Below are positions 12,026-29,511 of a stretch of DNA of 48,874 bases, one piece after another; the first letter of the stretch is position 1, and each line of letters starts with the position of its first letter. The translations under genes and the position numbers were made by a program. The stretch is from positions 1-48,874 of the forward strand of contig JAKSLJ010000024.1 in assembly GCA_024401275.1 (NCBI GenBank), read 5' to 3'. This DNA is from Bacteroidaceae bacterium (GTDB lineage Bacteria; Bacteroidota; Bacteroidia; Bacteroidales; Bacteroidaceae). The notes beneath the pieces were generated by a model. That model was not told where the DNA came from, made no database searches, and was given only the letters and a program-made list of their open reading frames with translations.

Positions 12026-12029
12026 AACG

Positions 12030-12037
12030 CAAAGTTA
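12030..12037 (-). promoter_or_regulatory. -7 element of dgt, very close to the start codon
   Basis: TAACTTTG on the minus strand ends 5 nt before the ATG at 12025. With the usual start of transcription a few bases after this box, the transcript would begin at or next to the ATG. Confidence 0.55.
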
Positions 12038-12090
12038 CACTTTTTTGAGAGAAACGGCAAGAAATCCTTTTTATTTTTCCCTTTTATTCG

Positions 12091-12098
12091 TAATTTTG
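12091..12098 (+). promoter_or_regulatory. -7 element of xerD
   Basis: TAATTTTG on the plus strand matches TAnnTTTG, 50 nt before the GTG start at 12148. The leader between them is made of repeated TTGTAAATTGTAA words. Confidence 0.5.
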
Positions 12099-12147
12099 CA
12101 GAAAATTTCAATTGTAAATTGTAATTTGTAAATTGTAAATCCCCGCG

Positions 12148-13032
12148 GTGTTAAAGAAATACAGACGATACTTAAAACTGGAACGCAACTTCACCGAGAA
12201 TACCATCGAAGCCTATATGCGCGATGTGGAGAGATATGTAGTCTTTCTGCGACAAGCCGGCATTGAGAGTCCTGTGGATGCGGAACTGAAGGATGTGGAA
12301 ATGTTCTCTGCATCTTTGCGCGATGTGGGCATTGGTCCGCGTTCGCAGTGCAGGATATTGTCTGGCGTTCGCTCGTTCCATAAGTTTCTCTTGCTCGATG
12401 AATATACCGACAAGAATCCTACGGAACTCCTTGAGTCACCACGCCTTGGCGACCATCTGCCGGAAGTTCTCTCCGTAGAGGAGATTGACATGATGGAGGC
12501 TGCCATAGACCTTTCGAAGTGGGAAGGTCAGCGCAACAAGGCTATCGTGGAGGTGCTGTTCTCTTGCGGCTTGCGAGTGTCGGAACTCGTAAACCTTGAG
12601 CTCTCTTCGCTCTATCTTGAGGAAGGTTTCATCCGCGTTTTCGGAAAAGGCAGAAAGGAACGACTCGTGCCAATCTCAAAGGCAGCGATAAAGCAGTTGC
12701 AGCTGTGGTTCATGGATCGCAACCTCATGACTAACATAAAGAAAGACGAGGAACCGTATGTTTTCCTGAACCGTCGTGGTGCCAGACTTACTCGCACCAT
12801 GATTCTTATAATGATAAAAGATCTCGGCGTAAAGGCTGGAATAAAGAAGACCATTTCTCCACACACTCTCCGCCATTCCTTTGCCACGAGTCTTCTTGAG
12901 GGTGGTGCCGACTTGCGCGTCATCCAGGCCATGCTCGGACACGAAAGCATCGGAACGACGGAAATCTACACGCACATTGACACCCACACCCTGAGAGAAG
13001 AGATCCTCAACCATCATCCGAGGAATAAGTAA
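12148..13032 (+). CDS. xerD: XerD-type tyrosine recombinase
   Basis: The 294-residue protein has the two-domain Xer layout: an N-terminal SAM-like core-binding domain (about residues 1-85, LERNFTENTIEAYMRDV) and a catalytic domain. All catalytic residues are present: Arg143 (CGLRVSELV), Lys167 (FGKGRKER), His239 and Arg242 (PHTLRHSFA), His265 (LGHESIGTT) and the nucleophile Tyr274 (EIYTHID). The start is GTG after a CCCCGCGGT stretch. Housekeeping XerD resolves chromosome dimers at dif, and this sequence looks like that type. However, it directly faces the minus-strand cassette-like array (1 bp between its stop and the first array gene), so a second role in moving array genes is possible. That role is inference. 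Confidence 0.9.
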   Translation: MLKKYRRYLKLERNFTENTIEAYMRDVERYVVFLRQAGIESPVDAELKDVEMFSASLRDVGIGPRSQCRILSGVRSFHKFLLLDEYTDKNPTELLESPRLGDHLPEVLSVEEIDMMEAAIDLSKWEGQRNKAIVEVLFSCGLRVSELVNLELSSLYLEEGFIRVFGKGRKERLVPISKAAIKQLQLWFMDRNLMTNIKKDEEPYVFLNRRGARLTRTMILIMIKDLGVKAGIKKTISPHTLRHSFATSLLEGGADLRVIQAMLGHESIGTTEIYTHIDTHTLREEILNHHPRNK

Positions 13033-13033
13033 A

Positions 13034-14707
13034 TCAAAAACCTATTCTTTGCGCTTTGTGCTTGCTCAGACTTTCGCTCTTGCATGCATCATGAATGGCT
13101 TCGATATTCATGCTGTCGCTCTCCGAAAGCACATTGTCGATGAGCTGCTTGCGGGCGATGTTCTCTATCTGTCCACCGCTGAAGTCGTATGACTTCGCAA
13201 GGCTCAACGCTTCGTCGTCAGTGAGTTCCGGAAGCATTGATTTCCATATATGGCGACTCTCGTTCGGCGTTGGCTTCTCGAATTCTATCTTGTAGAGGAA
13301 ACGGCGTTCAAAGGCACTGTCCAGCGAACCCGTGAGGTTTGTCGTGGCAATCATGATGCCCTCCAGCTGTTCCATCTCCTGAAGGATGATGTTCTGCATG
13401 GCGTTCTCCATCTTATCGACACTGCCTGTTGCACCCTCTGCGCGCTTGTTTAGGACAGCGTCAGCCTCGTTGAAGAGTAGGATAGGGGCTATGTCGTTGT
13501 TCTTCGCAAGACGCTTGTAGCGGTCGAAGATTTCCTTGATGTTCTTCTCCGTTTCGCCCACCCATTTTGAGCGGACATTCGGAACCTCAACGAGCATGAT
13601 GTCCCTGCCTGTCAGTCGTGCCAACTGCTGCGCCGTTTCTGTCTTGCCAGTGCCTGGACCTCCGTAGAAGAGACAGGTGAAGCCGGTGCGCATACCCTTC
13701 TCCTTCAGTCGCTGCTGTACGCGAGCCATGCGTACCTTTCCGAGGAGCGACTGCAACTGATTGACCTGCTTGGTCACATTATCATTGTAGTACAGAGTCT
13801 TCGGTGTTATGTCCTCATGACGAGTAAGGTTTGAACGATTCTCTTTCTTGACATTCAGCTTCAGTTCGCTAAGCACCTCGCGCTTTGAGTAGTCCGTTAG
13901 TCGCCAGCACTCCGTATCAGCCTGACCGTCTTCAAACGAGTGCTCGACAAGCTTTTGCTTCATCAATGTATGCGTTCCGGCAGTAAGGTCAGCCACATGG
14001 CGGCGAAGTGAAGAATTTTCGAAATAATACCTGATGTCACTACGGCAAATCCTGTCATCGTGATCTTTGATGAAGATGCGACACAGCACGAGATAGAGTT
14101 TTAGGTTGTCGTTGTTGAGACCGAAGGAGCGCAGACGTCCCGTGAGTTCGATCTGAGGATTGCTGTTGATGAGTTCATCGATGCACTGATATAGTTCTGA
14201 GTCCTCTATCTCATCGTTCTCTCGTCTCACGAGCAGACGGTCAAGATGGTCATAGAACTCCAGTGGGGTAAGGCCGTCAATGCGCTCTTTCTCAGGCAAT
14301 GTTCCGTTTCGCAGACATTCTATCGTCTTGTTTGGTACACGATAGGTGATGTCGCCATCTCCATCCTTCTTGCGCATGATGATGCCTTGATGCACAAGGC
14401 TGTCAATGTGCTCTGCCATTGAGAGAATCTTTACCATACGAACATCGAAGTGGCGCGCGATATCCTTCATGTTTATGCGCGTGTCATTGCACTGGTCAAT
14501 GAAAACGGCAAGGAACAGCGCCTCCATCTCGTTCTCTATGCCAAGTCGCGCCATCAGTTCCTTGATATAAGGCTTCGCAGGCGTAACTAACTGTTGCTTG
14601 CCTCTTTTCATCTCGGTAGTGATACCCTGGTCGTTGGTCATTTCCACAATCATCTCGATGACCTCAAGAACATTCATCTTCTTCATCATTGTTGAATTCT
14701 TTTCCAT
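13034..14707 (-). CDS. AAA ATPase of unknown function, array gene 1
   Basis: The ATG at 14707 (MEKNSTMMKK) is preferred over a longer frame because an AAGGAAAAGG ribosome-binding stretch lies just before it and the upstream extension is translated repeat. The product is 557 residues. The N-terminal ~300 residues are unrecognised and helical. The C-terminal AAA domain has Walker A GGPGTGKT (about residue 346), a Walker B written LLFNEAD (Asn in place of the usual Asp), a sensor IATTNL and an arginine-finger-like FERRF. The phrase VPNVRSKWVGETEKNIKEIF is typical of the CDC48/FtsH-like clade. It could unfold or remodel proteins; partners are unknown. It is the array gene nearest xerD and converges with it. 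Confidence 0.8.
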   Translation of the reverse strand: MEKNSTMMKKMNVLEVIEMIVEMTNDQGITTEMKRGKQQLVTPAKPYIKELMARLGIENEMEALFLAVFIDQCNDTRINMKDIARHFDVRMVKILSMAEHIDSLVHQGIIMRKKDGDGDITYRVPNKTIECLRNGTLPEKERIDGLTPLEFYDHLDRLLVRRENDEIEDSELYQCIDELINSNPQIELTGRLRSFGLNNDNLKLYLVLCRIFIKDHDDRICRSDIRYYFENSSLRRHVADLTAGTHTLMKQKLVEHSFEDGQADTECWRLTDYSKREVLSELKLNVKKENRSNLTRHEDITPKTLYYNDNVTKQVNQLQSLLGKVRMARVQQRLKEKGMRTGFTCLFYGGPGTGKTETAQQLARLTGRDIMLVEVPNVRSKWVGETEKNIKEIFDRYKRLAKNNDIAPILLFNEADAVLNKRAEGATGSVDKMENAMQNIILQEMEQLEGIMIATTNLTGSLDSAFERRFLYKIEFEKPTPNESRHIWKSMLPELTDDEALSLAKSYDFSGGQIENIARKQLIDNVLSESDSMNIEAIHDACKSESLSKHKAQRIGF

Positions 14708-14734
14708 ATTGCCTTTTCCTTTTTTATGTTTTAC

Positions 14735-14769
14735 AAAAAAAATGCGTGCTCCATAAGTAGAACACGCAT
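14735..14769 (-). terminator. Terminator-like hairpin between nucleotidase and AAA genes
   Basis: On the minus strand a 10-bp stem (ATGCGTGTTC / GAGCACGCAT, one wobble) with an 8-nt loop is followed directly by a run of T. It lies after the nucleotidase stop and before the AAA start, and it abuts the -7-like box of the intergenic module. It can act as the nucleotidase terminator or as an attenuator in the AAA leader. Confidence 0.7.
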
Positions 14770-14817
14770 AATATAGTAACAAATGGAAGAAAATTCAATT
14801 TTCAGGGCAACTTTTTT
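14767..14817 (-). repeat. Array module copy 1 (before the AAA gene)
   Basis: On the minus strand it reads AAAAAAGTTGCCCTGAAAAT, then TGAATTTTC, then ACTATATTATGCGTG. ATTG and TATATTA are 20 nt apart. The TGA is the stop codon of the nucleotidase gene. Confidence 0.85.
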
Positions 14818-15325
14818 CTTCGTCCTCCAATTCTGCCCATTTTATTTCGTCAAGGAAATAGTCAATAACAGTATTCCAGTCAGGGAACTCTGATGTGCCG
14901 AATTGTATGTGACGCTCGCCGAAGTCGCTTGCACCATGCCCAGTACGATCATCAATAAGATAAGCGCCTTTTTGTGCAGCAAGCAATCCTTTGCAGTGTG
15001 TGATGATCACCTTCTTGTGGAAGACATCATCAAGATGTTTCGTCACCCATGTCAATTTGTCTGACCATGCAGAAGGATTGCCCCATGGAGCAGTGGAGAG
15101 GATGTAAAGGTCGTAGCCCATGTCCTTCAATGCACGTACACCATGTATTGATCCAGACATTGGTTCCATCATCGAGAAGATGCCTGGCACATCGTCGTAG
15201 TGTGCTTTGCCCTTACCATCATCGGCATACTCTCGCTTTGTTGCCTCATCAAGCTTATCAATACCACTTTGGAAATTTACCAACACACCGTCCATGTCCA
15301 CAAAAATCTTTGTCTCTTTCATCAT
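14795..15325 (-). CDS. 5'(3')-deoxyribonucleotidase-like HAD phosphatase, array gene 2
   Basis: The 176-residue HAD protein has the nucleophile motif FVDMDGVLVNF (Asp10, Asp12), motif II in YILSTAPWGNPSAW, a Lys in KKVIITHCKGLL, and the acidic motif YLIDDRTGHGASDFG. These match the cytosolic 5'(3')-deoxyribonucleotidase family (NT5C), which dephosphorylates deoxyribonucleoside monophosphates. Two adjacent Met codons leave the start uncertain by one residue. The last codons (KSCPEN-stop) are encoded by the intergenic module. A nucleotide-depleting enzyme in a defence-like array is plausible as an anti-phage factor, but housekeeping salvage is equally possible. Confidence 0.85.
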   Translation of the reverse strand: MMKETKIFVDMDGVLVNFQSGIDKLDEATKREYADDGKGKAHYDDVPGIFSMMEPMSGSIHGVRALKDMGYDLYILSTAPWGNPSAWSDKLTWVTKHLDDVFHKKVIITHCKGLLAAQKGAYLIDDRTGHGASDFGERHIQFGTSEFPDWNTVIDYFLDEIKWAELEDEEKSCPEN

Positions 15326-15343
15326 ATTCTATTTATTTTTTAG

Positions 15344-15427
15344 TACGCTATTATTATAGGACTCCGCTTGCGCCTGAGGCAAAGCCGAATAAACTTGTTC
15401 CGGAAACTCAAAATCCGGATTCCTTTT
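15344..15427 (-). repeat. Degenerate array module copy 2 (before the nucleotidase gene)
   Basis: On the minus strand the left half is recognisable (AAAAAGGAATCCGGATTT, then TGAGTTTCCGG) and the TGA is again a stop codon, of the 125-residue gene. The right half is interrupted by a CTCAGGCGCAAGCGGAGTCC stretch that is also present near 16121-16143, so the -7-like box is displaced. Confidence 0.6.
15358..15380. repeat. CCGCTTGCGCCTGAG element, copy 1
   Basis: Shares CCGCTTGCGCCTGAG and its flanks with 16121-16143. The two copies sit in the same relative place, between an array module and the start of a gene. A shorter fragment (GCTGCGCCTGAGCTC) is near 26397, in the leader of the kinase gene. 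Confidence 0.6.
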
Positions 15428-15785
15428 TACGTTCTATTAACATTTCAATCAACCAGTTCGGCAGGAGTAAAGTTAGCGTGTTTTTTATCTCATCCTCCGT
15501 ATTCAATCTTTTGCCATTGAAGATAACACTGCGCGAATCTATGATGAGTTCGTTGTCATCCTTCTGATAGCTGACCCCACGCATGAAGAGGATGCGCTTC
15601 TGCCAACCATTCTCTTCGAACCACAGTGCAACGCGTTGCTTTTCACGCTGGTGGGCAACTTTTATGCACTCCTCCTTACCACGGAGCGATGCTCCAATCA
15701 ATCGGCATGAAGGTTCGTCGTTCATGGTGTATGCATGTCTGCAGAACATACCACCCAATTCACAATATCTTTTTCTATCTGGCAT
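15408..15785 (-). CDS. Small unknown protein, array gene 3
   Basis: The 125-residue product is not recognised. The N-terminal half has four Cys (CELGGMFC, CRL, CIKV) that could bind a metal or form disulfides. The middle is basic (HQREKQRVALWFEENGWQKR) and the C-terminus is a leucine-rich helix (LTLLLPNWLIEMLIERKKES). No signal peptide or membrane segment is seen. It starts 20 bp after the stop of the 89-residue gene, with no array module between, so the two form one transcription unit and perhaps one cassette. Its stop codon lies in the degenerate module. Confidence 0.65.
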   Translation of the reverse strand: MPDRKRYCELGGMFCRHAYTMNDEPSCRLIGASLRGKEECIKVAHQREKQRVALWFEENGWQKRILFMRGVSYQKDDNELIIDSRSVIFNGKRLNTEDEIKNTLTLLLPNWLIEMLIERKKESGF

Positions 15786-15805
15786 AAATCACAAAACAGA
15801 TGTCA

Positions 15806-16075
15806 TTATTTGAAAGTCTCTGCCAGCGCCATTGCTTCATTCTCATCGAGGAAGAGGTGAACGCCACTCTCGAAGTGCACGGCACTGGTGTCAAGCATAG
15901 AGTACGGTGCTGTCAATCGGCAGGTCTGAGGCATGAGGTCTTCGCAAACAAGTTTGCTGGTGTCGTTCTCGGTGTCAATGTTCTCGATGGCGACTAACTC
16001 GCAAGAGTAGAGCTCAGGATCATTGTCAAACACGAGGTGAAGGGTAACTGGGAGTTTTGTTTCTTTGATTGTCAT
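15806..16075 (-). CDS. Small unknown protein, array gene 4
   Basis: The ATG at 16075 (MTIKETKLPV) is chosen because the longer frame upstream runs through repeat sequence. The 89-residue product is acidic and predicted mostly beta at the N-terminus (VTLHLVFDNDPELYSCELVAIENI). It resembles small immunity-like or phage-type proteins only in general character. It is cytosolic by absence of signals. No clear Shine-Dalgarno is present. Upstream lie the CCGCTTGCGCCTGAG element and module copy 3. Confidence 0.65.
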   Translation of the reverse strand: MTIKETKLPVTLHLVFDNDPELYSCELVAIENIDTENDTSKLVCEDLMPQTCRLTAPYSMLDTSAVHFESGVHLFLDENEAMALAETFK

Positions 16076-16120
16076 AACGAATCTAAAATAATATAAATTG
16101 TAAATGGTAAATCTGTAAAT

Positions 16121-16143
16121 TGGATTCCGCTTGCGCCTGAGCA
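16121..16143. repeat. CCGCTTGCGCCTGAG element, copy 2
   Basis: Second copy of the element at 15358-15380, again between a module and a gene start. Here it is continued by GCACCTACTGGAGCGCAAG, which closes a hairpin with CTTGCGC. Confidence 0.6.
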
Positions 16144-16171
16144 CCTACTGGAGCGCAAGAAATGAAACTAC

Positions 16172-16217
16172 GCATATAATATAGTCACATTGCGTCCAAA
16201 ATTCAATTTTTCGGCGA
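16172..16217 (-). repeat. Array module copy 3 (before the 89-residue gene)
   Basis: On the minus strand: AATTCGCCGAAAAAT, TGAATTTTGG, then ACTATATTATATGCG. ATTG and TATATTA are 20 nt apart. The TGA stops the short open frame at 16203-16361. Confidence 0.85.
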
Positions 16218-16361
16218 ATTCATTTTCTTCATCACTTTCTCGAAATCCTCAAAACTCATGTGAGGCATAGTGATCTCACCTTCGTCGTTCTTGTTTTCTG
16301 ATTTTGTAGTAATATGCTTGACAATAGTCTTTGGTATCTTCAATCTTTTCAGATTATTATG
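16203..16361 (-). pseudogene. Remnant or non-ATG small cassette gene
   Basis: An open frame of about 50 codons lies between two modules and ends with the TGA inside module copy 3. Its translation has protein-like composition: NNLKRLKIPKTIVKHITTKS, then ENKNDEGEITMPHMSFEDFE, then KVMKKMNSPKN. There is no ATG near the beginning and an in-frame TGA lies just upstream. The first ATG would give only 20 residues. Either a CTG/TTG start is used, or this is a cassette that lost its start codon. No function is assigned. Confidence 0.45.
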
Positions 16362-16372
16362 TTTTTGGTTTC

Positions 16373-16426
16373 ACATACAATATAGTAAAAAGTCGCCCGA
16401 AATTCAATATTTCAGGCGACTTTTTT
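16373..16426 (-). repeat. Array module copy 4, with perfect stem
   Basis: On the minus strand: AAAAAAGTCGCCTGAAAT, ATTGAATTTCGGG, CGACTTTTTACTATATTG, TATGTG. Here the two halves pair over about 15 bp (AAAAAGTCGCC...GGCGACTTTTT), giving a terminator-like hairpin. ATTG and TATATTG are 20 nt apart. Confidence 0.9.
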
Positions 16427-16430
16427 AGAA

Positions 16431-16889
16431 CTAATAGTTGTGTATCGCACTCATCCCGTCAATGTTCTGTATTGACCATTTCTGCTCAGGAAAGCGTTCT
16501 TTGAGGGCTTCGAGCACTTCGTCGCGGCGACTCTCTTCGTTGACGATGGTGATGATGAAGCGGTGAAGGAGCTCAGGGGCGACGGTTGCATCTTCGCACT
16601 TGATGTTGGACTTGGCGATGTCTTCGTGAGTGAAAATAATCTCAATATCAACGTTTTCTGAAGCATTGACGCGGTCAAGGAGTTCTGCGACACGATTGAG
16701 TAACGTAGGCACGAGCTTAGGGCTGTTCATCGTGTAGTCGATGTTATGGCGGTCAAGTTGTACTGTCTCGCCTGTCTCTTCGTCAGTAAAGTCTTCAACG
16801 TATGTCTTTACGAACTCAACAGGGATGTTCTTCTCGGCAGCAATTTCTTCTGCAAACGCTTTCAAGCGCATTTCAGTTTCTTTATTCAT
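16431..16889 (-). CDS. Small acidic unknown protein, array gene 5
   Basis: The 152-residue product is not recognised. It is strongly acidic and helical, with a heptad-like stretch LVPTLLNRVAELLDRVN and a second half (IEIIFTHEDIAKSN, HRFIITIVNEESRRDEVLEALKERFP) that suggests an alpha/beta fold. There is no signal peptide or membrane segment. It stands between module copies 4 and 5 as a single-gene cassette. Size, acidity and isolation would fit an immunity-type protein, but no toxin partner is present and the call is only a suggestion. Confidence 0.65.
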   Translation of the reverse strand: MNKETEMRLKAFAEEIAAEKNIPVEFVKTYVEDFTDEETGETVQLDRHNIDYTMNSPKLVPTLLNRVAELLDRVNASENVDIEIIFTHEDIAKSNIKCEDATVAPELLHRFIITIVNEESRRDEVLEALKERFPEQKWSIQNIDGMSAIHNY

Positions 16890-16904
16890 AGCTATTTCAT
16901 TTTT

Positions 16905-16965
16905 TGATTACACACACAATATAGTCAACTTTTCTGAAAATTCAATATTTCGTGCCACTTTTTTT
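16905..16965 (-). repeat. Array module copy 5 (before the 152-residue gene)
   Basis: On the minus strand: AAAAAAAGTGGCACGAAAT, ATTGAATTTTCAGAAAAG, TTGACTATATTGTGTGTG, TAATCAAAAA. ATTG and TATATTG are 19 nt apart. Confidence 0.9.
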
Positions 16966-17015
16966 GAATCTATCGACAATTTCTTTGCTAACATACTATA
17001 CAGACTGGTAGGTCA

Positions 17016-17912
17016 TCAGTCTTGGGAATTCTTGTTGCCAAATGGAGAGTCCTCAAAAGCGTCGGGATCGACTCTCGTTCCTTCCGGTATCTGTATGTCC
17101 TCTATGGCTGTATCTTCAAATGCACATACACCTATACTATTGACTTTGCCTGCAAACTCAACAATGGAAAGTTGCCTGCAACTAGCAAATGCATAATCAT
17201 CTATAACGTCTATATCCCCGGCAAAGTGAATGGCTTTTAGCGTTGGGAGGCAAACAGCAAAATCATATATGCTCTTTATGCTGGCAGGAAAGAACACCTC
17301 TTCAAGCTCCTCAGGATCAATAGTATTACTTCCATACTGTGGATCTGCAAACACATCTCCAAAACTGGTTACCTGATAGGTTGTGCCATTGTATTCTATC
17401 TGTTCAGGTATCCTCAGCACTTTACCCTTGATGCAGTTATCACAATTGAGTATGGCTGTCCCATCCTTTCCCAAAACATAATTCAGACCATCCACATTCG
17501 TCAGTTTAATGCGTGGCACGAAATAACGTTCCTCCTTGTCGTTTGTGTCGCCGGCAGGAGCTTCGTAGAATATCTTGACAGACGAATATGCCCCCTCTAT
17601 CATCTCGCGCATCCTGGGATTCTCCCAATGCTTGTTGATGAAGATCCAGAGTAGGTATTCTTCGCCATCGTCCGTCTGTTTCCATTCAAGTGCATTGCTG
17701 TCATAGTTCCAATAACCTCCGAGGTCAGCGTAGGTCAGTTCGCTACCAATCAGACGAGCAAAGTGCTCGATCTCGCATCCTGTCCAATCAGAGCCTTCTG
17801 CTTTCTGTTTTTCGCGAGCTGTCTGTTCTACTTGGTTTATCTTACTCTCGATATCCAAGAGTTCTTCTTTACTGCCAGTCAAGGCATAATATACAGGAAT
17901 CCAATTTGCCAT
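17016..17912 (-). CDS. Leucine-rich (BspA-like) cytosolic protein, array gene 6
   Basis: The 298-residue protein starts with MANWIPVYYALTGSKEELLDI, a ferredoxin-like N-terminal module that resembles the start of the 194-residue array protein. The middle is unrecognised (about residues 55-170). The C-terminal ~120 residues carry BspA-type leucine-rich repeats (LRR_5), seen as VFFPASIKSIYDFAV, LKAIHFAGDIDVIDDYAFA and LSIVEFAGKVNSIGVCAFE. No signal peptide is present, which is unusual for BspA repeats and points to intracellular recognition of a protein partner. It follows the 135-residue gene by 32 bp without a module, so both belong to one transcription unit. Confidence 0.75.
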   Translation of the reverse strand: MANWIPVYYALTGSKEELLDIESKINQVEQTAREKQKAEGSDWTGCEIEHFARLIGSELTYADLGGYWNYDSNALEWKQTDDGEEYLLWIFINKHWENPRMREMIEGAYSSVKIFYEAPAGDTNDKEERYFVPRIKLTNVDGLNYVLGKDGTAILNCDNCIKGKVLRIPEQIEYNGTTYQVTSFGDVFADPQYGSNTIDPEELEEVFFPASIKSIYDFAVCLPTLKAIHFAGDIDVIDDYAFASCRQLSIVEFAGKVNSIGVCAFEDTAIEDIQIPEGTRVDPDAFEDSPFGNKNSQD

Positions 17913-17944
17913 ACTAAATATATGTTATAGGAGTGTTTTATAAT

Positions 17945-18352
17945 TTATTTCTCTATAATGGCCCGGTGCGTGATGGCGACTTTGTCGTCGGCATCGGTGG
18001 TGTGTTCAGTCAGAATGTCGGCACGGTCGAGGTTCTTTGCTTTGCGGTGCTCAACGTCACGCATAATGGCATCGTTGATGATTTCCTGTCTTTCGGGAGA
18101 CAATGTAGATACAGGTCGGCCTATTGGCAGAAGATTTGTGGCAGGGATGCGCACGCCTTCGTAGAGGAAATACTCATACGCCCCTTTCTCGTTGGCGGTA
18201 AGGCTGGTGGTGACGGTGAACACGTCTTTATCACTTTGACGAAGGTGCGCTACTTTCAGTTCTTTGCCATTGCGCTCAAGAATCTGGAGCAGGATACTCT
18301 TCTCATTAGGATAATACTTTCGTCCGATCTGGAATTTCGTGATTGTCTGCAT
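17945..18352 (-). CDS. Small unknown protein, array gene 7
   Basis: The 135-residue product is unrecognised. The N-terminal half looks like a beta-rich domain (FQIGRKYYPNEKSILLQILE, KELKVAHLRQSDKDVFTVTT) and the rest is charged and helical. There is no signal peptide. A module (copy 6) lies just before it, and the leucine-rich gene follows within 32 bp. The C-terminal half (residues about 98-135) is rich in Asp and Arg. No function is proposed. Confidence 0.65.
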   Translation of the reverse strand: MQTITKFQIGRKYYPNEKSILLQILERNGKELKVAHLRQSDKDVFTVTTSLTANEKGAYEYFLYEGVRIPATNLLPIGRPVSTLSPERQEIINDAIMRDVEHRKAKNLDRADILTEHTTDADDKVAITHRAIIEK

Positions 18353-18365
18353 AAGTTGTTACGTT

Positions 18366-18427
18366 TTTGATTACACTATTAATATCATCAACTTTTCTGA
18401 GAATTCAATATTCGGGTCGTCTTTTAG
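18366..18427 (-). repeat. Array module copy 6 (before the 135-residue gene)
   Basis: On the minus strand: AAAAGACGACCCGAAT, ATTGAATTCTCAGAAAAG, TTGATGATATTAATAGTG, TAATCAAAAACG. ATTG and GATATTA are 19 nt apart; the -7-like part is GATATTAAT instead of TATATTG. Confidence 0.85.
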
Positions 18428-18460
18428 GTTCTTTTAACGGAAGTGATTCATTTCCTCTCG

Positions 18461-19024
18461 CTACACATCCAGATACCAATCGTCTTGAAACTCGGCACGC
18501 TCAACAACTTCTTTGGCAGATTCGTCCCCCAATGCAGCAGCCTCCTTGAAAAGAAGAAGCGCAAAGGGAATTTCCTGCTTGATACCCATACGAGGATAGC
18601 CCTGTGTACAATATAAGGCATAGTTATAGATCTGGGGTGCCTCTTTGAGTTCGCGTGCTCTTTCAAAGAAGCACTTCTTGTTCATCACCAGTTCCTCATC
18701 ATCACAGATGGATATGATGTCGCTTTTATCCATCTTGTTGCAGTCGCTTATCAGCTTATCTTTCAGCGCTTTTATATCGCACGCTTCTTTCCATGACTTG
18801 AATCCCAGAGTAGTTGCACCGACGATGACGATTCGCATGGCATCCCAGTTGTTGTCTTCTACCAATGGAGCCAACCATGTGATGTCGGAAGACTTGAAAT
18901 CTTCATAACTCATGTTGCCTATAATACTAAGCTGCATGTCCCTGTCTGCAGCCCTTGCTGCTTCGATATGCTCAGGGGTTGGATTCAAGAACCACAACAT
19001 ATTATTATCTGTTGAATTTGCCAT
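18461..19024 (-). CDS. Sel1-like small protein, array gene 8
   Basis: The 187-residue product begins MANSTDNNMLWFLNPTPEHI. The first 110 residues are helical, with an ankyrin- or HEAT-like feel (DRDMQLSIIGNMSYEDF, WDAMRIVIVGATTLGFK). The C-terminal part has one clear Sel1-type unit (PFALLLFKEAAALGDESAKE, then VVERAEF), so it probably binds a protein. There is no signal peptide. It stands alone between module copies 6 and 7. Function unknown; a protein-binding inhibitor or immunity role would fit but is not shown. Confidence 0.7.
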   Translation of the reverse strand: MANSTDNNMLWFLNPTPEHIEAARAADRDMQLSIIGNMSYEDFKSSDITWLAPLVEDNNWDAMRIVIVGATTLGFKSWKEACDIKALKDKLISDCNKMDKSDIISICDDEELVMNKKCFFERARELKEAPQIYNYALYCTQGYPRMGIKQEIPFALLLFKEAAALGDESAKEVVERAEFQDDWYLDV

Positions 19025-19037
19025 CGTTTCAATTATT

Positions 19038-19095
19038 CGTTAAATTAATATCATCAGTCTTTCTGAAAAATCAATTTTTAGGAAATACAATATTC
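19038..19095 (-). repeat. Array module copy 7 (before the Sel1-like gene)
   Basis: On the minus strand: GAATATTGTATTTCCT, AAAAATTGATTTTTCAG, AAAGACTGATGATATTAAT. The second ATTG and GATATTA are 19 nt apart, exactly as in copy 6. The upstream GTCGCC part is missing; instead AATATTG occurs a second time. Confidence 0.75.
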
Positions 19096-19113
19096 AGACA
19101 TACAATAGATGCA

Positions 19114-20583
19114 TTACGAATCAACAAGTTTTCTTATTCGCTCGACTAATCCCGAAATCTGTGTTTTCAGATATTCAGAATCGATTTCTTCTTCATTATT
19201 TGACAAATAGAGTCCGTCAACCATAAAAGAGGTGTTGTTATACGGAAGTCCAAATAGAGAATCGGAACATGAATCGTCCAAAGAAAAATTCTCATCAAGA
19301 GGATATAATAAGCCACCTACTAACACTTCTGAATTTGGAAGATTTGAATAGTACTGAATGTATGAATGTATTTGAAAGAAATCACTACGATCAACATCGT
19401 TTTTATTTCCTGTCATACGTTTATATTTGGCATCAAACACCATGTACTGACTCTTGCCATTCAGTTCACGTTTCAATACAATGTCAGGAATTATAGTGCG
19501 ACCATAAAACATACCATTGTATACTTCTGTTTCACAATCATATTGTGGCAAAACCTCCCAATTGTCAGTACCAAGGGCAACTCCCAATACTTTTCTCAGA
19601 TATGCTTCCCATATCTCTGCCATATCGAGAAACAAGCACATGCCACTACCGTCTTTCACGTTTTCGATACTAAGAGATTTGCCATGTATAATCTGCCATG
19701 AAAGATCAACCAACGGTTTCCAACTCTGGTATATGCTTTTGTATTCAATATTCTTGTAGTCTTCTTTGGATATATTGAAATCTTGACCTTTACATTTCGT
19801 CACGAGTGTATTGATAGCATCTTGTACATTTTGCGGAATGCTGGATTTGCTGATGCTTATCTTTGATAGCACCTTGTAAGCCCGATAGACGATAGAACAC
19901 ACCAAATAATCAAGTTCCTTTTCTCGATATTCAGAAACGATTTGTTTCGTAGCAATATAGGAACTAATAGATTTGTGGATATTGATGTGCCCTCTTACTT
20001 GCAAACCCTTTTGCGAGTGCAACACTGTTTTGCGAGGCAAACCATACTTATTGGCCAATGCGAATTTACGAATCCATAAGTGATTCATTATCAAATGCAT
20101 GAGTTCATTCCAATCTTTTTTCTGAATTTTGCTTTTGCTACTATCAGACTTTAGTAGATTGAAATGATATAGTTCACCAAGCATAGCAAAGAGGCATGAT
20201 TCTCCAAATCTTGGTTTTATGGATATTTGGATATCATTGATTACAATTTCTCCTATATATCGACCAGCATGCCACGCTCGCTGACGTACCCATGTTGTCT
20301 CATCATCCTTAGAACGACGGAAAAGAAAACCTTCCTTATCGAAATAAGGATATGCCAATCTGCTATCTTCATCCCTATAATGCTTATCATCAATAGGAAT
20401 AGGTGCCACAGATTCCAACATCTGCACCAAAGCGTCAGATGCTTTGTGGCGTTTATCACTCTTTGCCAATGAAGATACATCTCCTATGGCATTTTCAGCA
20501 TAGGAGATATCCTCTTCTTTATCATTTTTTCTGCTGCTGATAAAGAATGGCATATTGTCTTTGGCAATAACTCTAAGTGCCAT
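19114..20583 (-). CDS. mcrC: McrC-like nuclease subunit of McrBC restriction system
   Basis: McrC is the nuclease partner of McrB; together they cut DNA with modified cytosines (type IV restriction). The 489-residue protein has an N-terminal region with WVRQRAWHAGRYIGEIVI and KPRFGESCLFAMLGEL, typical of McrC, and a C-terminal PD-(D/E)xK nuclease fold. The visible catalytic residues are Asp367 (TIIPDIVLK) and Asp384-Lys386 (VFDAKYKR). It lies 14 bp after mcrB, so they are co-transcribed. The two genes are visibly more AT-rich than the flanking housekeeping genes, which points to recent acquisition. Confidence 0.9.
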   Translation of the reverse strand: MALRVIAKDNMPFFISSRKNDKEEDISYAENAIGDVSSLAKSDKRHKASDALVQMLESVAPIPIDDKHYRDEDSRLAYPYFDKEGFLFRRSKDDETTWVRQRAWHAGRYIGEIVINDIQISIKPRFGESCLFAMLGELYHFNLLKSDSSKSKIQKKDWNELMHLIMNHLWIRKFALANKYGLPRKTVLHSQKGLQVRGHINIHKSISSYIATKQIVSEYREKELDYLVCSIVYRAYKVLSKISISKSSIPQNVQDAINTLVTKCKGQDFNISKEDYKNIEYKSIYQSWKPLVDLSWQIIHGKSLSIENVKDGSGMCLFLDMAEIWEAYLRKVLGVALGTDNWEVLPQYDCETEVYNGMFYGRTIIPDIVLKRELNGKSQYMVFDAKYKRMTGNKNDVDRSDFFQIHSYIQYYSNLPNSEVLVGGLLYPLDENFSLDDSCSDSLFGLPYNNTSFMVDGLYLSNNEEEIDSEYLKTQISGLVERIRKLVDS

Positions 20584-20597
20584 AAATTATCACAAGG

Positions 20598-22454
20598 TTA
20601 AGAATCAGACTCTTCTACTTGGGCTTCTTCATTGCCCAATTCGGAACTATTTCCATTGTATGCTTTTTTACAGTTATCTATGAATGTCTTCTTTTCTGTC
20701 TTATCCATTGAACCGCAATAAGCATCAAGTGTTGGAAGAATACTAATTTCCCAAAGGATGTTCCTTGCTTGGTTCCAGTTATTTGCTCCAGACGAGGATT
20801 CTTTCAAGTTCTTGTAAATATCTGCAACTTCAGCAAAGAATGCATGACCAATATGATAATTAGGTCCTAAACTATCTTCCTTGTCAATCAGCTTATTCAC
20901 AGCAGAGCTGCAAGTAATGAAATCATCGATATTTACATTCTTGTCATCTCCGATGTTTTCCAATCTGCTATTTATAATCGACTCCAAGGAATCCTCACTA
21001 TAATCATGTCTTTCCCATATAAAACGGCGACGAAGTGCAAAGTCTATGCGTTCAAGAGAGAAGTCAATCTCGTTCATTGTACCAATGAAATATACATTAT
21101 CAGGAACATTAAGTACAAGATATTCCTCCTCATTGTCCTTAGTTCCTTCTTCCTTTCCCTCAGACTTGTCTACATTTTTCTTTAGTGTAAGTCGAACATC
21201 GGTATTTCTTTTTTCTATAGCGGTAAACAATTCACCAAAAACACGAGACACATCCACACGATTCATTTCATCAAGAATGACGATGTAGGGCATTGACGAA
21301 TCTTCCTTTGCTTTCTTTATAATGTTAAAAATGAATCCTTCTTTTGTCTCAATGCCTTCTTTCCCCATCGTCTGCCCTGCGATGAAGTCCTCGTAATTAT
21401 AGTTTATATGGAACTGAAGGTAATAAATATACTTACTCAGGATGTTATCTTTATCACACAGTTTTTCGGTTGCGTTTTCTGCATTTATGATATCCCTTAT
21501 GCAATCCTTGCACTTTTGCTTATCACTCGCTTTTTTGTATGACTTCATGACAGATCTTACAAGTATCTCCTTTGCAAGTTCCATGGCAGTATAGGTTTTT
21601 CCTGTTCCTGGAGGTCCATATAACACCATTGCTTGCTTGTATTCAAGAAGTTGTACTCTGCTAAGTGTAGAACTCACACTTTCCCCCTTCCATAATAATG
21701 GGAAGTGTTTTGAATAGAATGTACCTTCTGTTTCGATAATACTCTTAATGAAGATGTCCTTTCGCAAGGATTTTAGTTTTTTGTCATCGTCATCGCCAGC
21801 TATTACGCATCCAATCTCCTCGCATTTCTTAATGATACGTTGTTTATCTGCAGTTGACGCTATTGGTTCGTATTCGTCTGGATTACATAGATGAAGGAGT
21901 AGGTTCTTTACTCCATCAGGGACTTTAAATTCGTAAGATGTGGAAGATTTGCACTCTTGTATTACTATATCTTTTTTCGCTCCAAATGAATTAAAGCAAG
22001 ATTCAAAACACTGTTTGAAAAGATAGACTATAAAACGGATTCCATTTGTCTTTGTTTGAACATATCCTGAGCCGGCACCTGCTACATTTACAAATGGAAT
22101 GAAGTCGTATTCTGAGTTTTCTTTTTTTTGCTTTTCTTTTTGTTCCTTTGACAAACCTTTGGAGTTCTTGACACAAAGTTCATATTGTGTTTTTCTGCTA
22201 TTAGGAAAACACCAAAGCCACAAAGCATGATTAAGTACTAATAACTCGCTTCTTTTGGTTATATCTTTTACCGCATCAGTAAACGGAAGGTCTTTCCCTT
22301 CTTTTGTCTTCTGACACAATGCTTTATATACATTATCAATTGCAGATTTGATTTCTGATATTTCTTCTCCTTTTGTAATATATGACTTTCCCCCAATAAG
22401 TAGATCTCGTATAAAATCATCAAAATACTCGTATGGAAATCCTTTTTTTCTCAT
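20598..22454 (-). CDS. mcrB: McrB-like GTPase subunit of McrBC restriction system
   Basis: The 618-residue protein has a C-terminal AAA+ domain with Walker A YGPPGTGKTYTAME (about residue 280), Walker B IVILDEMNRVDVSRVFGEL (about 391) and the McrB signature FIGTMNEIDFSLERID, whose MNxxD element gives GTP preference. The N-terminal ~250 residues presumably recognise modified DNA and do not resemble the E. coli McrB DNA-binding domain. A zinc-ribbon-like pair of Cys (KQKCKDC) sits in an insertion after Walker A. It acts as a hexameric motor with McrC. It follows the smaller McrB-like gene across a 90-bp gap that carries a conserved GTGGTGGGG repeat rather than an array module. Confidence 0.9.
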   Translation of the reverse strand: MRKKGFPYEYFDDFIRDLLIGGKSYITKGEEISEIKSAIDNVYKALCQKTKEGKDLPFTDAVKDITKRSELLVLNHALWLWCFPNSRKTQYELCVKNSKGLSKEQKEKQKKENSEYDFIPFVNVAGAGSGYVQTKTNGIRFIVYLFKQCFESCFNSFGAKKDIVIQECKSSTSYEFKVPDGVKNLLLHLCNPDEYEPIASTADKQRIIKKCEEIGCVIAGDDDDKKLKSLRKDIFIKSIIETEGTFYSKHFPLLWKGESVSSTLSRVQLLEYKQAMVLYGPPGTGKTYTAMELAKEILVRSVMKSYKKASDKQKCKDCIRDIINAENATEKLCDKDNILSKYIYYLQFHINYNYEDFIAGQTMGKEGIETKEGFIFNIIKKAKEDSSMPYIVILDEMNRVDVSRVFGELFTAIEKRNTDVRLTLKKNVDKSEGKEEGTKDNEEEYLVLNVPDNVYFIGTMNEIDFSLERIDFALRRRFIWERHDYSEDSLESIINSRLENIGDDKNVNIDDFITCSSAVNKLIDKEDSLGPNYHIGHAFFAEVADIYKNLKESSSGANNWNQARNILWEISILPTLDAYCGSMDKTEKKTFIDNCKKAYNGNSSELGNEEAQVEESDS

Positions 22455-22466
22455 TTTCTTTTTTTA

Positions 22467-22515
22467 TTTCCCTCCCCACCACAACCATCTCTGTAATGGG
22501 GAGGTCTGTTTTACA
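22467..22515 (-). repeat. GTTGTGGTGGGG repeat, copy 1
   Basis: On the minus strand: GTAAAACAGACCTCCCCATT, ACAGAGATGGTTGTGGTGGGG, AGGGAAAT. CCTCCCCA can pair with TGGGGAGG. The same sequence with about ten changes is at 23471-23522. It follows the stop of the 280-residue gene by about 30 nt and precedes mcrB. Confidence 0.8.
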
Positions 22516-22544
22516 TTATTTTAATTCTTTAAAATCTGTAGTTA

Positions 22545-23387
22545 TTATGCCATATTGTATGCGTCTACAACTTCTTGCATTCTTTCCTGTGCATCAGGCA
22601 TACCTCGTAGGTATTCTGCTACAAGTCCTATAAGGGTCGAATGCCAGAGTTCTGACCAGTCGCCATGTAGGTCCTGTATCTTTAGGAAATAAGAAGGGCC
22701 GATGTGGTATGCGCTGTTTAATCCAGGAATCTGCTCGATGGCTGCGTTTATCGCATTCATCTTCGACAAGGCGACATCTTTCAAATTGTCAATATTGCCA
22801 TCCCACATGTCAATGCGAGACACGGCTGTAACCTCTTTGAAAGCGAAGCGACGACGCATAGAGTAATCCATAGGAACTGCGCTGTGGTCAATTTCGTTCA
22901 TCGTACCGATGATAAAGACATTCTCAGGAACGAAGAAGCCGTCTTTGAACTCACCTTCTTCATCAAGATATTGATAACGTGTTCTCACCTTGCCTTCAAC
23001 ACCGCGGAGAGCAGGTTCAATAGCATAAACCAGTTCACCAAACACTTCTGTCAGGTTGCAATGGTTGATATTGTCGATGATGAATACATAGTTCTGCTCT
23101 GGGTCATTCAGAGCCTTCTTGCAGAACGCCTTGAATGGACCATCCTTGCGTTCTGAACCGATATTACCCTTGACATCTCTCACAGGACGCAGTCCCTCCA
23201 TGAAGTCCTCATAACAGGTTGAGGGAGTAAAGACCATCAACTCCCAATGCGGATGGTTGAGTTTGTCGGTGTCGCCTGTTATTGCCTCTGCAAGTTCCTT
23301 TGCGAGAAGTGTCTTACCTGTGCCTATTGCACCATTGAGAATCACATTGCGTGATGTAAGTACGAAAGATTTGAAATAATCAACCAT
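22545..23387 (-). CDS. McrB-like AAA ATPase lacking DNA-binding region, array gene
   Basis: The 280-residue protein is essentially a bare McrB-type AAA+ domain. Walker A is [15 protein letters not shown] (Gly19-Thr26), and the McrB signature FIIGTMNEIDHSAVPMD with Asn164 and Asp167 is present. The Walker B segment reads VFIIDNINHCNLTEVFGEL, so the catalytic Glu expected after Asp105 is Asn106. This suggests it binds but hardly hydrolyses nucleotide and may work as a regulatory subunit with the full McrB encoded next to it. It carries its own module (copy 8) in front. It could alternatively be a separate MoxR-like ATPase, but the close match to McrB favours a paralogue. Confidence 0.82.
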   Translation of the reverse strand: MVDYFKSFVLTSRNVILNGAIGTGKTLLAKELAEAITGDTDKLNHPHWELMVFTPSTCYEDFMEGLRPVRDVKGNIGSERKDGPFKAFCKKALNDPEQNYVFIIDNINHCNLTEVFGELVYAIEPALRGVEGKVRTRYQYLDEEGEFKDGFFVPENVFIIGTMNEIDHSAVPMDYSMRRRFAFKEVTAVSRIDMWDGNIDNLKDVALSKMNAINAAIEQIPGLNSAYHIGPSYFLKIQDLHGDWSELWHSTLIGLVAEYLRGMPDAQERMQEVVDAYNMA

Positions 23388-23410
23388 GGTATATTGTCTT
23401 TTGTTTGTTT

Positions 23411-23463
23411 TTGATTATGTGTGTAATATAGTAATGTTCGGTTCAGATTTCAATTAGTCGGAC
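23411..23463 (-). repeat. Array module copy 8 (before the McrB-like gene)
   Basis: On the minus strand: AAATATGTCCGACTA, ATTGAAATCTGAACCGAAC, ATTACTATATTACACACA, TAATCAAAAAC. ATTG and TATATTA are 20 nt apart. Confidence 0.8.
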
Positions 23464-23470
23464 ATATTTG

Positions 23471-23522
23471 CCTTTCCCCCCCCACCACAACTATCTCTGC
23501 AATGTAGAGGTTGTTTTTACAT
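23471..23522 (-). repeat. GTTGTGGTGGGG repeat, copy 2
   Basis: On the minus strand: GTAAAAACAACCTCTACATT, GCAGAGATAGTTGTGGTGGG, GGGGGAAAGG. It starts about 13 nt after the stop of the 194-residue gene and is followed by module copy 8. Compared with copy 1, the sequence is conserved better than the stem. Confidence 0.8.
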
Positions 23523-23534
23523 GTCTATTTCAGT

Positions 23535-24119
23535 TTACTCTTCACATCCGCCAATCTCAATGTTGTCCCTATAGCGTTCAATCTCGTTGAAGCCGCAGGC
23601 AAGGTCTTTTTCGTCGCAGTACTCTTGGATTTTCTCAATGGTGTCATATTCATCAGAGAGTTTGTACTGCTTGCGGATATGGGCGAGTGCTTCTTCTTCG
23701 GTGATGAAATAGACATCGTCTTCATCTTCCTCTGTCCATACACGATAGTTCTCAGGGAAGTACTTACGCTCAAAGTCGCTTGTCTGAGGTTCCCAATCCT
23801 CAGAGCATTCAATGAAGTAATAGATCTTTGCTTCTTTATCTCCGAGTTGTGCAAGAACATCAGCAACAATGTGGATTTCTTCCCAAGGATATGCCTGAGT
23901 GAAGAACAGAACGCTCACACCGTCACGCTCTTCAACTCGTGCGCCAGTATACCATTCTGCACGATAAGCATATTCATACTCGTCCATGTCAACCTCCAAT
24001 CCGAGGTTCTCGATAGACTTCACCATCCAGCCTTCGCCACGGTTGATGGCATCAGCAACTTGCTCGAGGACTTCCTTCTTGCCCTCAATAGCATACTTTG
24101 TAAAACAGTAATTTGCCAT
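23535..24119 (-). CDS. Small acidic protein with ferredoxin-like N-terminus, array gene
   Basis: The 194-residue product begins MANYCFTKYAIEGKKEVLEQ. The pattern (MAN, aromatic, YAxxG, KEExL, then IN) matches the start of the 298-residue leucine-rich array protein, so both probably share an N-terminal fold of the YubB/DUF1281 kind. The rest is very acidic (WTEEDEDDVYFITEEEAL, YDTIEKIQEYCDEKDL). There is no signal peptide. It is preceded by module copy 9 and followed by a GTTGTGGTGGGG repeat. DNA-mimic or immunity roles would be compatible with the acidity, but nothing proves them. Confidence 0.7.
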   Translation of the reverse strand: MANYCFTKYAIEGKKEVLEQVADAINRGEGWMVKSIENLGLEVDMDEYEYAYRAEWYTGARVEERDGVSVLFFTQAYPWEEIHIVADVLAQLGDKEAKIYYFIECSEDWEPQTSDFERKYFPENYRVWTEEDEDDVYFITEEEALAHIRKQYKLSDEYDTIEKIQEYCDEKDLACGFNEIERYRDNIEIGGCEE

Positions 24120-24139
24120 AATATCTAATTTTTTTCTTT

Positions 24140-24195
24140 ACGCGTTTAATATAGTACTTGTTTGCTCAAAATTCCATATTTGGGGTGACTTTTTT
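24140..24195 (-). repeat. Array module copy 9 (before the 194-residue gene)
   Basis: On the minus strand: AAAAAAGTCACCCCAAAT, ATGGAATTTTGAGC, AAACAAGTACTATATTAAAC, GCG. ATGG (for ATTG) and TATATTA are 20 nt apart. This is the copy farthest from xerD. Confidence 0.85.
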
Positions 24196-24206
24196 CTCCC
24201 GTCCCA

Positions 24207-24404
24207 TTATAATTCCGTGATAATCCAGTTGCCGGCAGAATCATAACGGTCTGCGCGTGAAGAGAATCCGGCACGACACAATGCCTCCCTTACCTCTGAA
24301 GGACGGGGAGTTCCTGTGCTGGATGTGATGACCTGAAGCATGTATCCCTTGGGAATACCTGCATCGACAAAATCTCGTGGGGCTTGTAAAAGAAGTGTTC
24401 GCAT
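24207..24404 (-). CDS. Small unknown protein at the far end of the array
   Basis: The ATG at 24404 is chosen because the longer frame upstream runs through the -7 box and the kinase terminator. The 65-residue product (MRTLLLQAPRDFVDAGIPKG, ending WIITEL) has no signal or membrane segment. It looks like a short conserved Bacteroidales hypothetical protein with a small alpha/beta fold. A TATCTTTG box at 24424-24431 (minus strand) matches the canonical -7 element, unlike the array modules, so this gene may be the boundary gene rather than a true array member. Confidence 0.65.
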   Translation of the reverse strand: MRTLLLQAPRDFVDAGIPKGYMLQVITSSTGTPRPSEVREALCRAGFSSRADRYDSAGNWIITEL

Positions 24405-24423
24405 AGTATTGTTTTGACGCGGC

Positions 24424-24431
24424 AAAGATAA
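24424..24431 (-). promoter_or_regulatory. -7 element of the 65-residue gene
   Basis: TATCTTTG on the minus strand, 19 nt before the ATG at 24404. A TTTG lies only 12 nt upstream of the box, too close for the standard spacing. Confidence 0.45.
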
Positions 24432-24506
24432 GCAATAATTAGCAAATATGCTTGTTCCATTTTGTTCCAATTTCGGTTGGGGGGCGCTTTTCCTTTGTAA
24501 TGGCAT

Positions 24507-24539
24507 AAAAAAGCCCGACATTCGTGGGGAGATGTCGGG
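24507..24539 (-). terminator. Intrinsic terminator of the kinase gene
   Basis: On the minus strand the stem CCCGACAT / ATGTCGGG (24532-24539 with 24514-24521) is followed by a C and a run of T. It begins about 37 nt after the kinase stop codon and insulates the array from the kinase operon. Confidence 0.8.
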
Positions 24540-24575
24540 GGAATTGGTGTCGTGAGGGCACGGCACCTCCATGGT

Positions 24576-26372: not shown

Positions 26373-26419
26373 TGTTTTTTTGTTAATTGAAAAATGCTGC
26401 GCCTGAGCTCTTTTTACTT

Positions 26420-26983: not shown

Positions 26984-26995
26984 TGGGGCAATAGT

Positions 26996-28578: not shown

Positions 28579-28607
28579 AGTAGTTTGGTTTTATGGTTTA
28601 TGTTTAT

Positions 28608-29468: not shown

Positions 29469-29511
29469 GCTGTCTGTCTTTAGGTTTTGGGCTTTTGTTC
29501 TATTCTTTTTT

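Follow-up and report, generated by a model that had tools for sequence, protein, structure and literature searches.

A putative mosaic cassette array with a recurring promoter-like module in a Bacteroidaceae contig

We analysed a 48,874-nt stretch of DNA from a Bacteroidaceae bacterium (hereafter the window), which is the entire contig C17 (JAKSLJ010000024.1) of a 3.2-Mb assembly in 71 contigs that is 91% complete. From position 13034 to about 24404 the genes all lie on the minus strand and are directed at the recombinase gene xerD (12148-13032, plus strand), as an earlier reading of the letters alone (the sequence-only reading) had described, and eight copies of a promoter-like module lie among them. 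With moderate confidence, we take this locus to be a mosaic cassette array in which the module also serves as short homology for cassette exchange. A cassette would consist of one module and one to a few genes, all reading toward an AAA ATPase gene; the module would give each cassette its own promoter, and the same stretch would be the place where cassettes swap, enter or leave between genomes by homologous or 'semilegitimate' recombination in its conserved boxes, with no dedicated site-specific recombinase and with XerD as a chance neighbour. The promoter type matches what are probably early promoters in certain large phages, and at least one module-headed gene family, the NT5C nucleotidase, occurs in both arrays and phages. 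If this is true, chromosomes trade small accessory genes between genera through promoter-borne short homology, with expression kept and no dedicated recombinase; the module offers a search handle for unannotated cassette genes in the family, ties these islands to the large-phage group and makes arming by phage transcription a testable idea.

The module and its distribution

The module spans about 65 nt and runs from an A-tract through GTTRCCCC, TTGAATTTT, a variable spacer of about 10 nt, GTKACTATATTAT, a weak TGTAA and an A-rich leader to the ATG; as a pattern it reads TTGAATTTT-N11-ACTATATTA, typically 25-50 nt 5' of a start codon. In a consensus table of 73 array modules (28- or 29-nt cores only, near-identical copies removed) the core is 29 nt long in 68, which together give an A-tract, GTTRCCCC, TTGAATTTTT, a variable stretch, TGTKACTATATTAT, a weak TGTAA and A-rich sequence up to the start. 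Primary promoters of Bacteroidota, given for Bacteroides in PMC7366714 as -33 TTTG and -7 TAnnTTTG, likewise have two boxes 5' of the start codon; the module differs from them in that its hexamers, TTGAAT-17-TATATT, are nearer to classical sigma-70 and in its long extra conservation. A classical sigma-70 scan detects five of the eight window modules, with 44 sites in total against 29.8 in shuffles. Position and consensus suggest that the module is the promoter of each cassette. A hairpin sought from -22 to +22 in 100 modules was not found when compared with dinucleotide shuffles (mean z -0.01, median 0.26).

The sequence-only reading had listed nine copies in the window, and eight of them stand. 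Six are recovered by an independent model, trained on 62 modules from other genomes with the window, locus L009 and contig C9 of the same assembly left out, at 42.0 bits (14798), 39.0 (16206), 25.5 (16945), 23.3 (16407), 18.0 (23453) and 15.1 (24176), against a best score of 9.6 bits in 40 simulated windows. The copies at 18366 and 19038 are divergent and fall below 6 bits in that model. At the same time, the 18366 copy matches each of the 16905 and 19038 copies at 83% identity over 35 nt, and the 16905 copy at 79% over 62 nt, and a model trained on the window recovers both divergent copies (E 1.2e-6 and 4.0e-5), which is partly circular because both are in its training set. The ninth copy, placed at 15344, is not a module; a different, GC-rich repeat, CGCTTGCGCCTGAG, lies there at 15365 and recurs at 16128. 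This repeat is perhaps a short interspersed one, and the stretch 16109-16163 matches other genomes of the genus (93% in G096, 88% nearby in G194).

Within its own genome the module is confined to few loci. The window-trained model gives eight matches at E 2e-8 to 4e-5, the next ones, at 0.35 and 0.49, being on C9, and the exact pattern gives six matches (four in the window, two on C9) against none in reversed controls. In this assembly the module is thus no general promoter of ordinary genes, and the occurrence at ordinary genes that would speak against a cassette array was not seen. The C9 locus (L087, G000:C9:36812-37350) has two weaker modules, 0.5 kb apart, before open reading frames (ORFs) of 114 and 82 aa.

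Across the genus, nine of 150 genomes have a match at E up to 0.01, own included, and those outside the own genome are single and weak; DNA of the array matches 125 of 398 genus genomes, and the matches listed are short fragments of genes, chiefly the AAA gene, that show no synteny. Applied to 399 genomes of the family (the own genome counted), the window-trained model finds the module in 25 genomes from 11 of 30 genera (E up to 0.003, with about one expected by chance), and the exact pattern has 115 matches in 75 genomes against 16 in reversed controls (totals summed by hand from rows). Some solitary matches may be due to chance; others cluster on single contigs, where G574 has six and G458 and G775 have four apiece. 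Modules that are identical even in the variable spacer are found in different genera (g14/g10 and g14/g21 are examples). Moreover, among 52 loci examined for relatives of the AAA gene in other Bacteroidales, part of them ended by contig ends, the module stands directly upstream of the relative in L007, L009, L011, L022, L023 and L038, and a weaker copy stands further upstream in L008.

Homology between arrays and the module

To compare arrays we used 43 loci (window 11501-29500, L009, L087 and L194-L233) and defined blocks as BLASTN matches of at least 80% identity and at least 150 nt between different loci; L199 and L224 both contain the same 2 kb of one contig, and the ends of that overlap are excluded by a locus-end rule. 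Homology tends to end at modules: 33 of 145 distinct block ends fall within 20 bp of a module core, against a mean of 3.8 and a maximum of 14 when ends are rotated within each locus (2000 trials), and under an intergenic-only null the count is 25 of 65 against a mean of 9.5 and a maximum of 20. For example, L216 (2604-4272) and L225 (8627-6968) have a whole module-to-module unit in common at 78% identity, with all four ends 15 nt from module centres. A 178-bp block of DNA common to the window and L009 (84%) covers a sigma-like remnant and module 2 and ends at the module, so that module 2 and its counterpart at L009:436 have the same upstream cassette and spacer (one mismatch) and are followed by different genes. 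When the flanks of 111 modules were compared (modules with less than 150 nt on either side dropped), the pairs listed with detectable homology fell into three groups: 96 had just the downstream gene in common, 29 just the upstream gene, and 14 had both, some of these 14 being adjacent modules of one locus. Gene families of the arrays reappear across genera in new orders. These observations bear out the proposal of the sequence-only reading that the module heads single genes or short gene runs and marks the differences in cassettes between genomes.

Where crossovers fell can be read from the variable spacer. In pairs that were in register, at least 84% identical and at least 100 nt long, the spacer tracks a common upstream gene in five of 13 pairs and a common downstream gene in nine of 16 (0-1 mismatches; background 1.1%), which places crossovers both before and after the spacer and not at one constant point of strand exchange. 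Considering the reshuffled gene order, the two-sided crossovers and the missing conserved hairpin together, we infer that exchange is driven by homology, through a homologous or short-homology route, rather than by one fixed recombination site.

We judge it unlikely that the module is a mere conserved promoter of a regulon, with accessory genes turning over anywhere and block ends reflecting only the conservation of the promoter. Such a promoter would sit where the module mostly does, 25-50 nt before start codons, and would be conserved upstream of some AAA genes in several genomes, as is seen; on the other hand, block ends at modules exceed the intergenic null, identical modules are found between genera with the spacer included, and whole module-to-module units such as that of L216 and L225 are in common.

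In a separate observation, a module stands directly before a transposase of the IS1595 type at L009:1146-1874 and at L230:8676-9403, the two genomes being 95% identical there.

Large phages, known cassette systems and XerD

The strict pattern also occurs in viral contigs, with 102 stretches against 25 in the reversed control, the 25 all on different contigs, and some large phage records of up to 410 kb contain the element frequently. In the 80 stretches that were read there are 88 sites, which are not independent because some records are related; an ORF starts within 150 nt of 62 of them, 11 fall within long ORFs, and the core measures 28 nt in 77. A second pattern, applied to 13 records picked for their matches (30.7-427 kb), gave 70 matches against one in the control; the matches are confined to a single strand in 11 records and mostly so in the other two. 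Terminase_6N was found in seven of the 13 records, which count as about six independent ones because two share sequence, and in all seven it lies on the strand opposite to the majority of modules, where early promoters would be expected. The nearest relatives of one terminase are in Tenacibaculum phage PTm1 (30.6%), an uncultured 635-kb phage, Sphingomonas phage PAU and cyanophages (27-30%); these belong to the wider T4 type. PTm1 itself (30-31% GC, 100 kb) shows no enrichment, with five lax matches against eight in reversed controls, and a general artefact of AT-rich DNA was rejected on this ground, a rejection qualified by the lax-pattern counts for the other phages given below.

A module-headed NT5C nucleotidase in one phage record, a family found also in other arrays, is 54% identical over 139 aa to that of L198 and 33% over 156 aa to that of the window. 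An NT5C scan of the viral contigs gave no confirmed relative, and a search for close relatives of the AAA protein found none there. Of ten large phage proteins compared with PHROG, most had no match, and one record with modules yielded an amidase and a head-closure protein.

That the arrays descend from early regions of large phages, or from a phage satellite, and stayed behind in the chromosome seems to us quite improbable. The same element mainly on the non-terminase strand of large phage records, the common NT5C family, and PHROGs for sigma factor and deoxynucleotidase (four of 80 array-set entries each) are what such an origin would leave; against it stand the ordinary chromosomal flanks of five tested loci (only L211 being multi-module), the lack of an AAA relative in viral contigs (close relatives only), the core length of 29 nt in 68 of 73 array modules against 28 nt in 77 of 88 viral sites (a contrast on which it bears that array loci were partly found by a model trained mainly on 29-nt cores), and a GC content of 0.44-0.49 in the AAA, NT5C, second McrB-like and small genes of the window (0.36-0.37 in mcrBC) against 0.23-0.36 in the tabulated phage loci.

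A long shot is that arrays carry large-phage early promoters on purpose, being silent or low until a phage sigma factor or modified polymerase fires them, so that they would form a reshuffling defence or decoy array in which stand-alone sigma region 1.2/2 fragments, some fused to NT5C, act as decoys or helpers. This idea arises because the module is not found at the host's other genes and reads as classical sigma-70, a type said to be absent from the promoters of the phylum.

Among known systems the mosaic cassette array comes nearest to the promoter early stem-loops (PeSLs) of T4-type phages. Arbiol (2010) and Comeau (2014) reportedly described the PeSL as a repeated early promoter that lies between small genes and is the site of their shuffling, with expression kept. 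PMC4503421 and PMC4177764 present PeSLs as mobile regulatory cassettes of these phages. Here too a promoter-like element, judged by sequence and position, is repeated between genes, and gene shuffling with ends at the element is seen at the array loci. The arrays differ in having no conserved stem-loop (mean z -0.01 over 100 modules; one window copy has a terminator-like hairpin), in their place on bacterial chromosomes throughout one family (the flank of L211 is chromosomal, and in the window the array adjoins core genes such as xerD) and in much defence-like or unannotated content. The chromosomal site and the missing stem-loop set the array apart from PeSL members, and on our best reading it would be a chromosomal counterpart of T4-type PeSLs that lacks the stem-loop and carries mixed, partly defence-like genes. 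Our searches of openly licensed papers listed no report of such chromosomal arrays.

Least of all do we expect a Xer-type tyrosine recombinase, possibly one whose gene lies elsewhere in the genome, to use the module as its recognition site for inserting cassettes in the manner of rAID loci or integrons. It is true that xerD lies at the end of the array, that an intergenic element is repeated between co-oriented small genes, and that GTKAC...GTAA within the module forms a weak palindrome (in 19 of 100 modules the first GTAA is at +6). At the same time, a single ortholog of xerD is present in 58 of 60 genus genomes, the own one counted (E up to 1e-60; G002 and G030 are without one at that limit), which makes xerD a core gene and likely a bystander; the array genes of the window were found in none of 16 fetched xerD neighbourhoods; a XerD search of the array-set loci found, besides the window and the 16 xerD loci, homologs only in L208 (31%) and L200 (28%); and crossovers are two-sided, with no hairpin. 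We therefore rejected XerD as the array's recombinase on its core distribution, the array-free xerD loci and the few homologs near arrays, and the role given to it by the sequence-only reading is not upheld. The protein scores 320.7 bits against the NCBIfam XerD cut-off of 329.6, above the cut-off of the general tyrosine recombinase model. Apparently the array swaps genes without a recombinase of its own, as far as the search for XerD-like tyrosine recombinases shows.

The analogy to rAID loci, also drawn in that reading, fails on GC content and orientation. These loci were reportedly described by Ross (2019). According to PMC12247911 they have, in Bacteroidales, a tyrosine recombinase upstream of at least two co-directional genes, a GC content below 41%, orphan immunity products and a conserved intergenic motif. 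The window resembles them in its co-oriented short genes and nearby Xer-type gene; it also has a recurring intergenic motif, which may or may not be that of rAID loci. It differs in that its xerD is a core gene convergent on the array (no direct comparison was made with BF9343_RS08045) and in that its genes, mcrBC excepted, are not below 41% GC, on which grounds membership was rejected. None of its scanned proteins matched an immunity family in Pfam or NCBIfam, which leaves room for orphan immunity products. Integrons are cassette arrays with a recurrent element, an integron integrase and attC hairpins, and the window is like them in having cassettes with a recurrent element between genes. On the other hand, its genes are directed at the recombinase gene, each cassette has a promoter-like module, no attC-like hairpin was found in -22 to +22, and XerD scores 126 bits against TIGR02249 (integron integrase; cut-off 265); membership was rejected on this score and the missing hairpin.

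Several observations weigh against a mosaic cassette array with homology-driven exchange. The spacer differs in eight of 13 upstream-shared and seven of 16 downstream-shared filtered pairs, and module pairs from related genomes are not independent. The loci were chosen for module content and are a biased sample, for which the rotation null corrects in density only; the 43-locus set includes the 2-kb overlap of L199 and L224, and comparisons are between species only, with one genome per species. Two window modules (18366 and 19038) are divergent, and the promoter reading comes from position and consensus. The systematic recombinase search near arrays covered XerD-like tyrosine recombinases. With a laxer pattern, the 198 kb of AT-rich module-bearing phage sequence gave 70 forward and 23 reversed matches, a weaker contrast than the exact pattern gave (array loci, over 197 kb, had 70 and 0 with the laxer one), and NT5C is the only clear array family in those 198 kb. 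Finally, many array genes are unannotated and 'defence' is a minority assignment.

Genes of the window and of related arrays

The features of the window between xerD and the end of the array are collected in Table 1. Of the gene labels given by the sequence-only reading, AAA ATPases, NT5C-type nucleotidase, LRR_5 and McrBC hold, and 'Sel1-like' has no match in Pfam or NCBIfam. That reading had overlooked the ORF at 16203-16343, whose stop codon lies within module 2; it is the counterpart of the C-terminal part of a 144-aa sigma-70-like protein of L009, to which window 16206-16562 has 37% protein similarity over 122 positions. Among the loci found, the closest named carrier of the AAA protein is a Bacteroidaceae metagenome-assembled genome (MAG; 79%).

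Table 1. Features in and next to the array, by position in the window
Feature	Position	Strand	Basis and remarks
xerD, core tyrosine recombinase	12148..13032	+	Pfam/NCBIfam; at array end, likely bystander
AAA+ ATPase, last array gene here	13034..14707	-	Pfam AAA 1e-24
Module 1, core 14770-14798	14762..14802	-	Window-trained and independent models
NT5C-type deoxynucleotidase	14795..15325	-	Pfam NT5C 4.6e-12; stop codon within module 1
125-aa protein without family	15408..15785	-	ORF; nothing above Pfam cut-off
89-aa protein without family	15806..16075	-	No Pfam family
Module 2, core 16178-16206	16170..16211	-	Window-trained and independent models
ORF of about 46 codons, TTG start (21 aa from ATG start)	16203..16343	-	Resembles sigma-70-like protein of L009
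Module 3, core 16379-16407	16372..16412	-	Window-trained and independent models; terminator-like hairpin on this copy
152-aa protein without annotation	16431..16889	-	ORF, Pfam scan
Module 4, core 16918-16945 (28 nt)	16910..16950	-	Window-trained and independent models
BspA-type leucine-rich repeat (LRR) protein	17016..17912	-	Pfam LRR_5 6.5e-14
135-aa protein without annotation	17945..18352	-	Pfam scan
Module 5, divergent (TTGATGATATT)	18373..18412	-	Pairwise similarity and window-trained model; missed by independent model
187-aa protein	18461..19024	-	No Pfam or NCBIfam family
Module 6, divergent (TTGATGATATT variant)	19043..19079	-	Similarity and window-trained model; missed by independent model
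McrC-like	19114..20583	-	Pfam McrBC 1.8e-26; GC 0.37
McrB-like AAA_5 ATPase	20598..22454	-	Pfam AAA_5 1.7e-14; GC 0.36
Second McrB-like AAA_5 ATPase	22545..23387	-	Pfam AAA_5 7.9e-14; NCBIfam McrB 1.6e-38, below cut-off
Module 7, core 23425-23453	23419..23456	-	Window-trained and independent models
194-aa protein	23535..24119	-	Relatives in two further arrays (L214 29%, L219 26%)
Module 8, core 24148-24176, most distant from xerD	24140..24181	-	Window-trained and independent models
65-aa ORF past last module	24207..24404	-	Sequence; host-type -7 box TATCTTTG in front, no module (by eye)

For content we scanned 80 entries, comprising xerD, 78 distinct array-side proteins and one repeat; they derive from 74 of 93 de-duplicated ORFs downstream of modules (19, including four AAA relatives, were dropped by hand) and four further ORFs included by hand. 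In Pfam, NT5C and PDDEXK_4 are the most frequent families (four entries each), followed by DUF2779, sigma-70 region 2 and region 1.2 (three each). PADLOC matches, given as the first 25 of 100 families, include PDC-S26, MzaA and Mads-like ones. No immunity family was found for the scanned window proteins in Pfam and NCBIfam, which does not exclude one. The suggestion of the sequence-only reading that the array collects defence or immunity genes is thus borne out in part, by McrBC here and by PDDEXK_4, DUF2779 and Mads/PDC-like proteins in related arrays; most small genes are unannotated and none matches an immunity family. A role in phage defence or competition would fit this content.

Pieces of sigma factors, with regions 1.2 and 2 only or region 2 only, are found in L196, L217, L219 and L232. 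The L196 piece (L196:2946-3467) is 86% identical over 146 aa to a complete RpoD-like protein of L231, and its C-terminal 24-aa tail matches the DNA of the neighbouring cassette gene; by sequence it is apparently a chimera. NT5C is fused ahead of sigma-70 regions 1.2 and 2 at L218:1457-2230 and L220:9009-9779, and full-length sigma-70 factors directly follow the AAA gene in two Paludibacteraceae MAGs (L024:11714-12571 and L025:11703-12560). The flanks of L194, L195, L198, L210 and L211 are of chromosomal types (such as nadC, dnaX, ruvC and recQ); L211 alone of these is a multi-module array.

A few smaller observations concern the window itself. The N-terminal part of the LRR protein at 17016-17912 is similar, by eye, to the protein at 23535. 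Next to the array and without a module, 24576-26372 encodes a protein kinase domain with BspA-type LRR repeats. A 50-nt direct repeat (84%) at 22467-22516 and 23473-23522 flanks the second McrB-like gene and is possibly a trace of cassette insertion or duplication.

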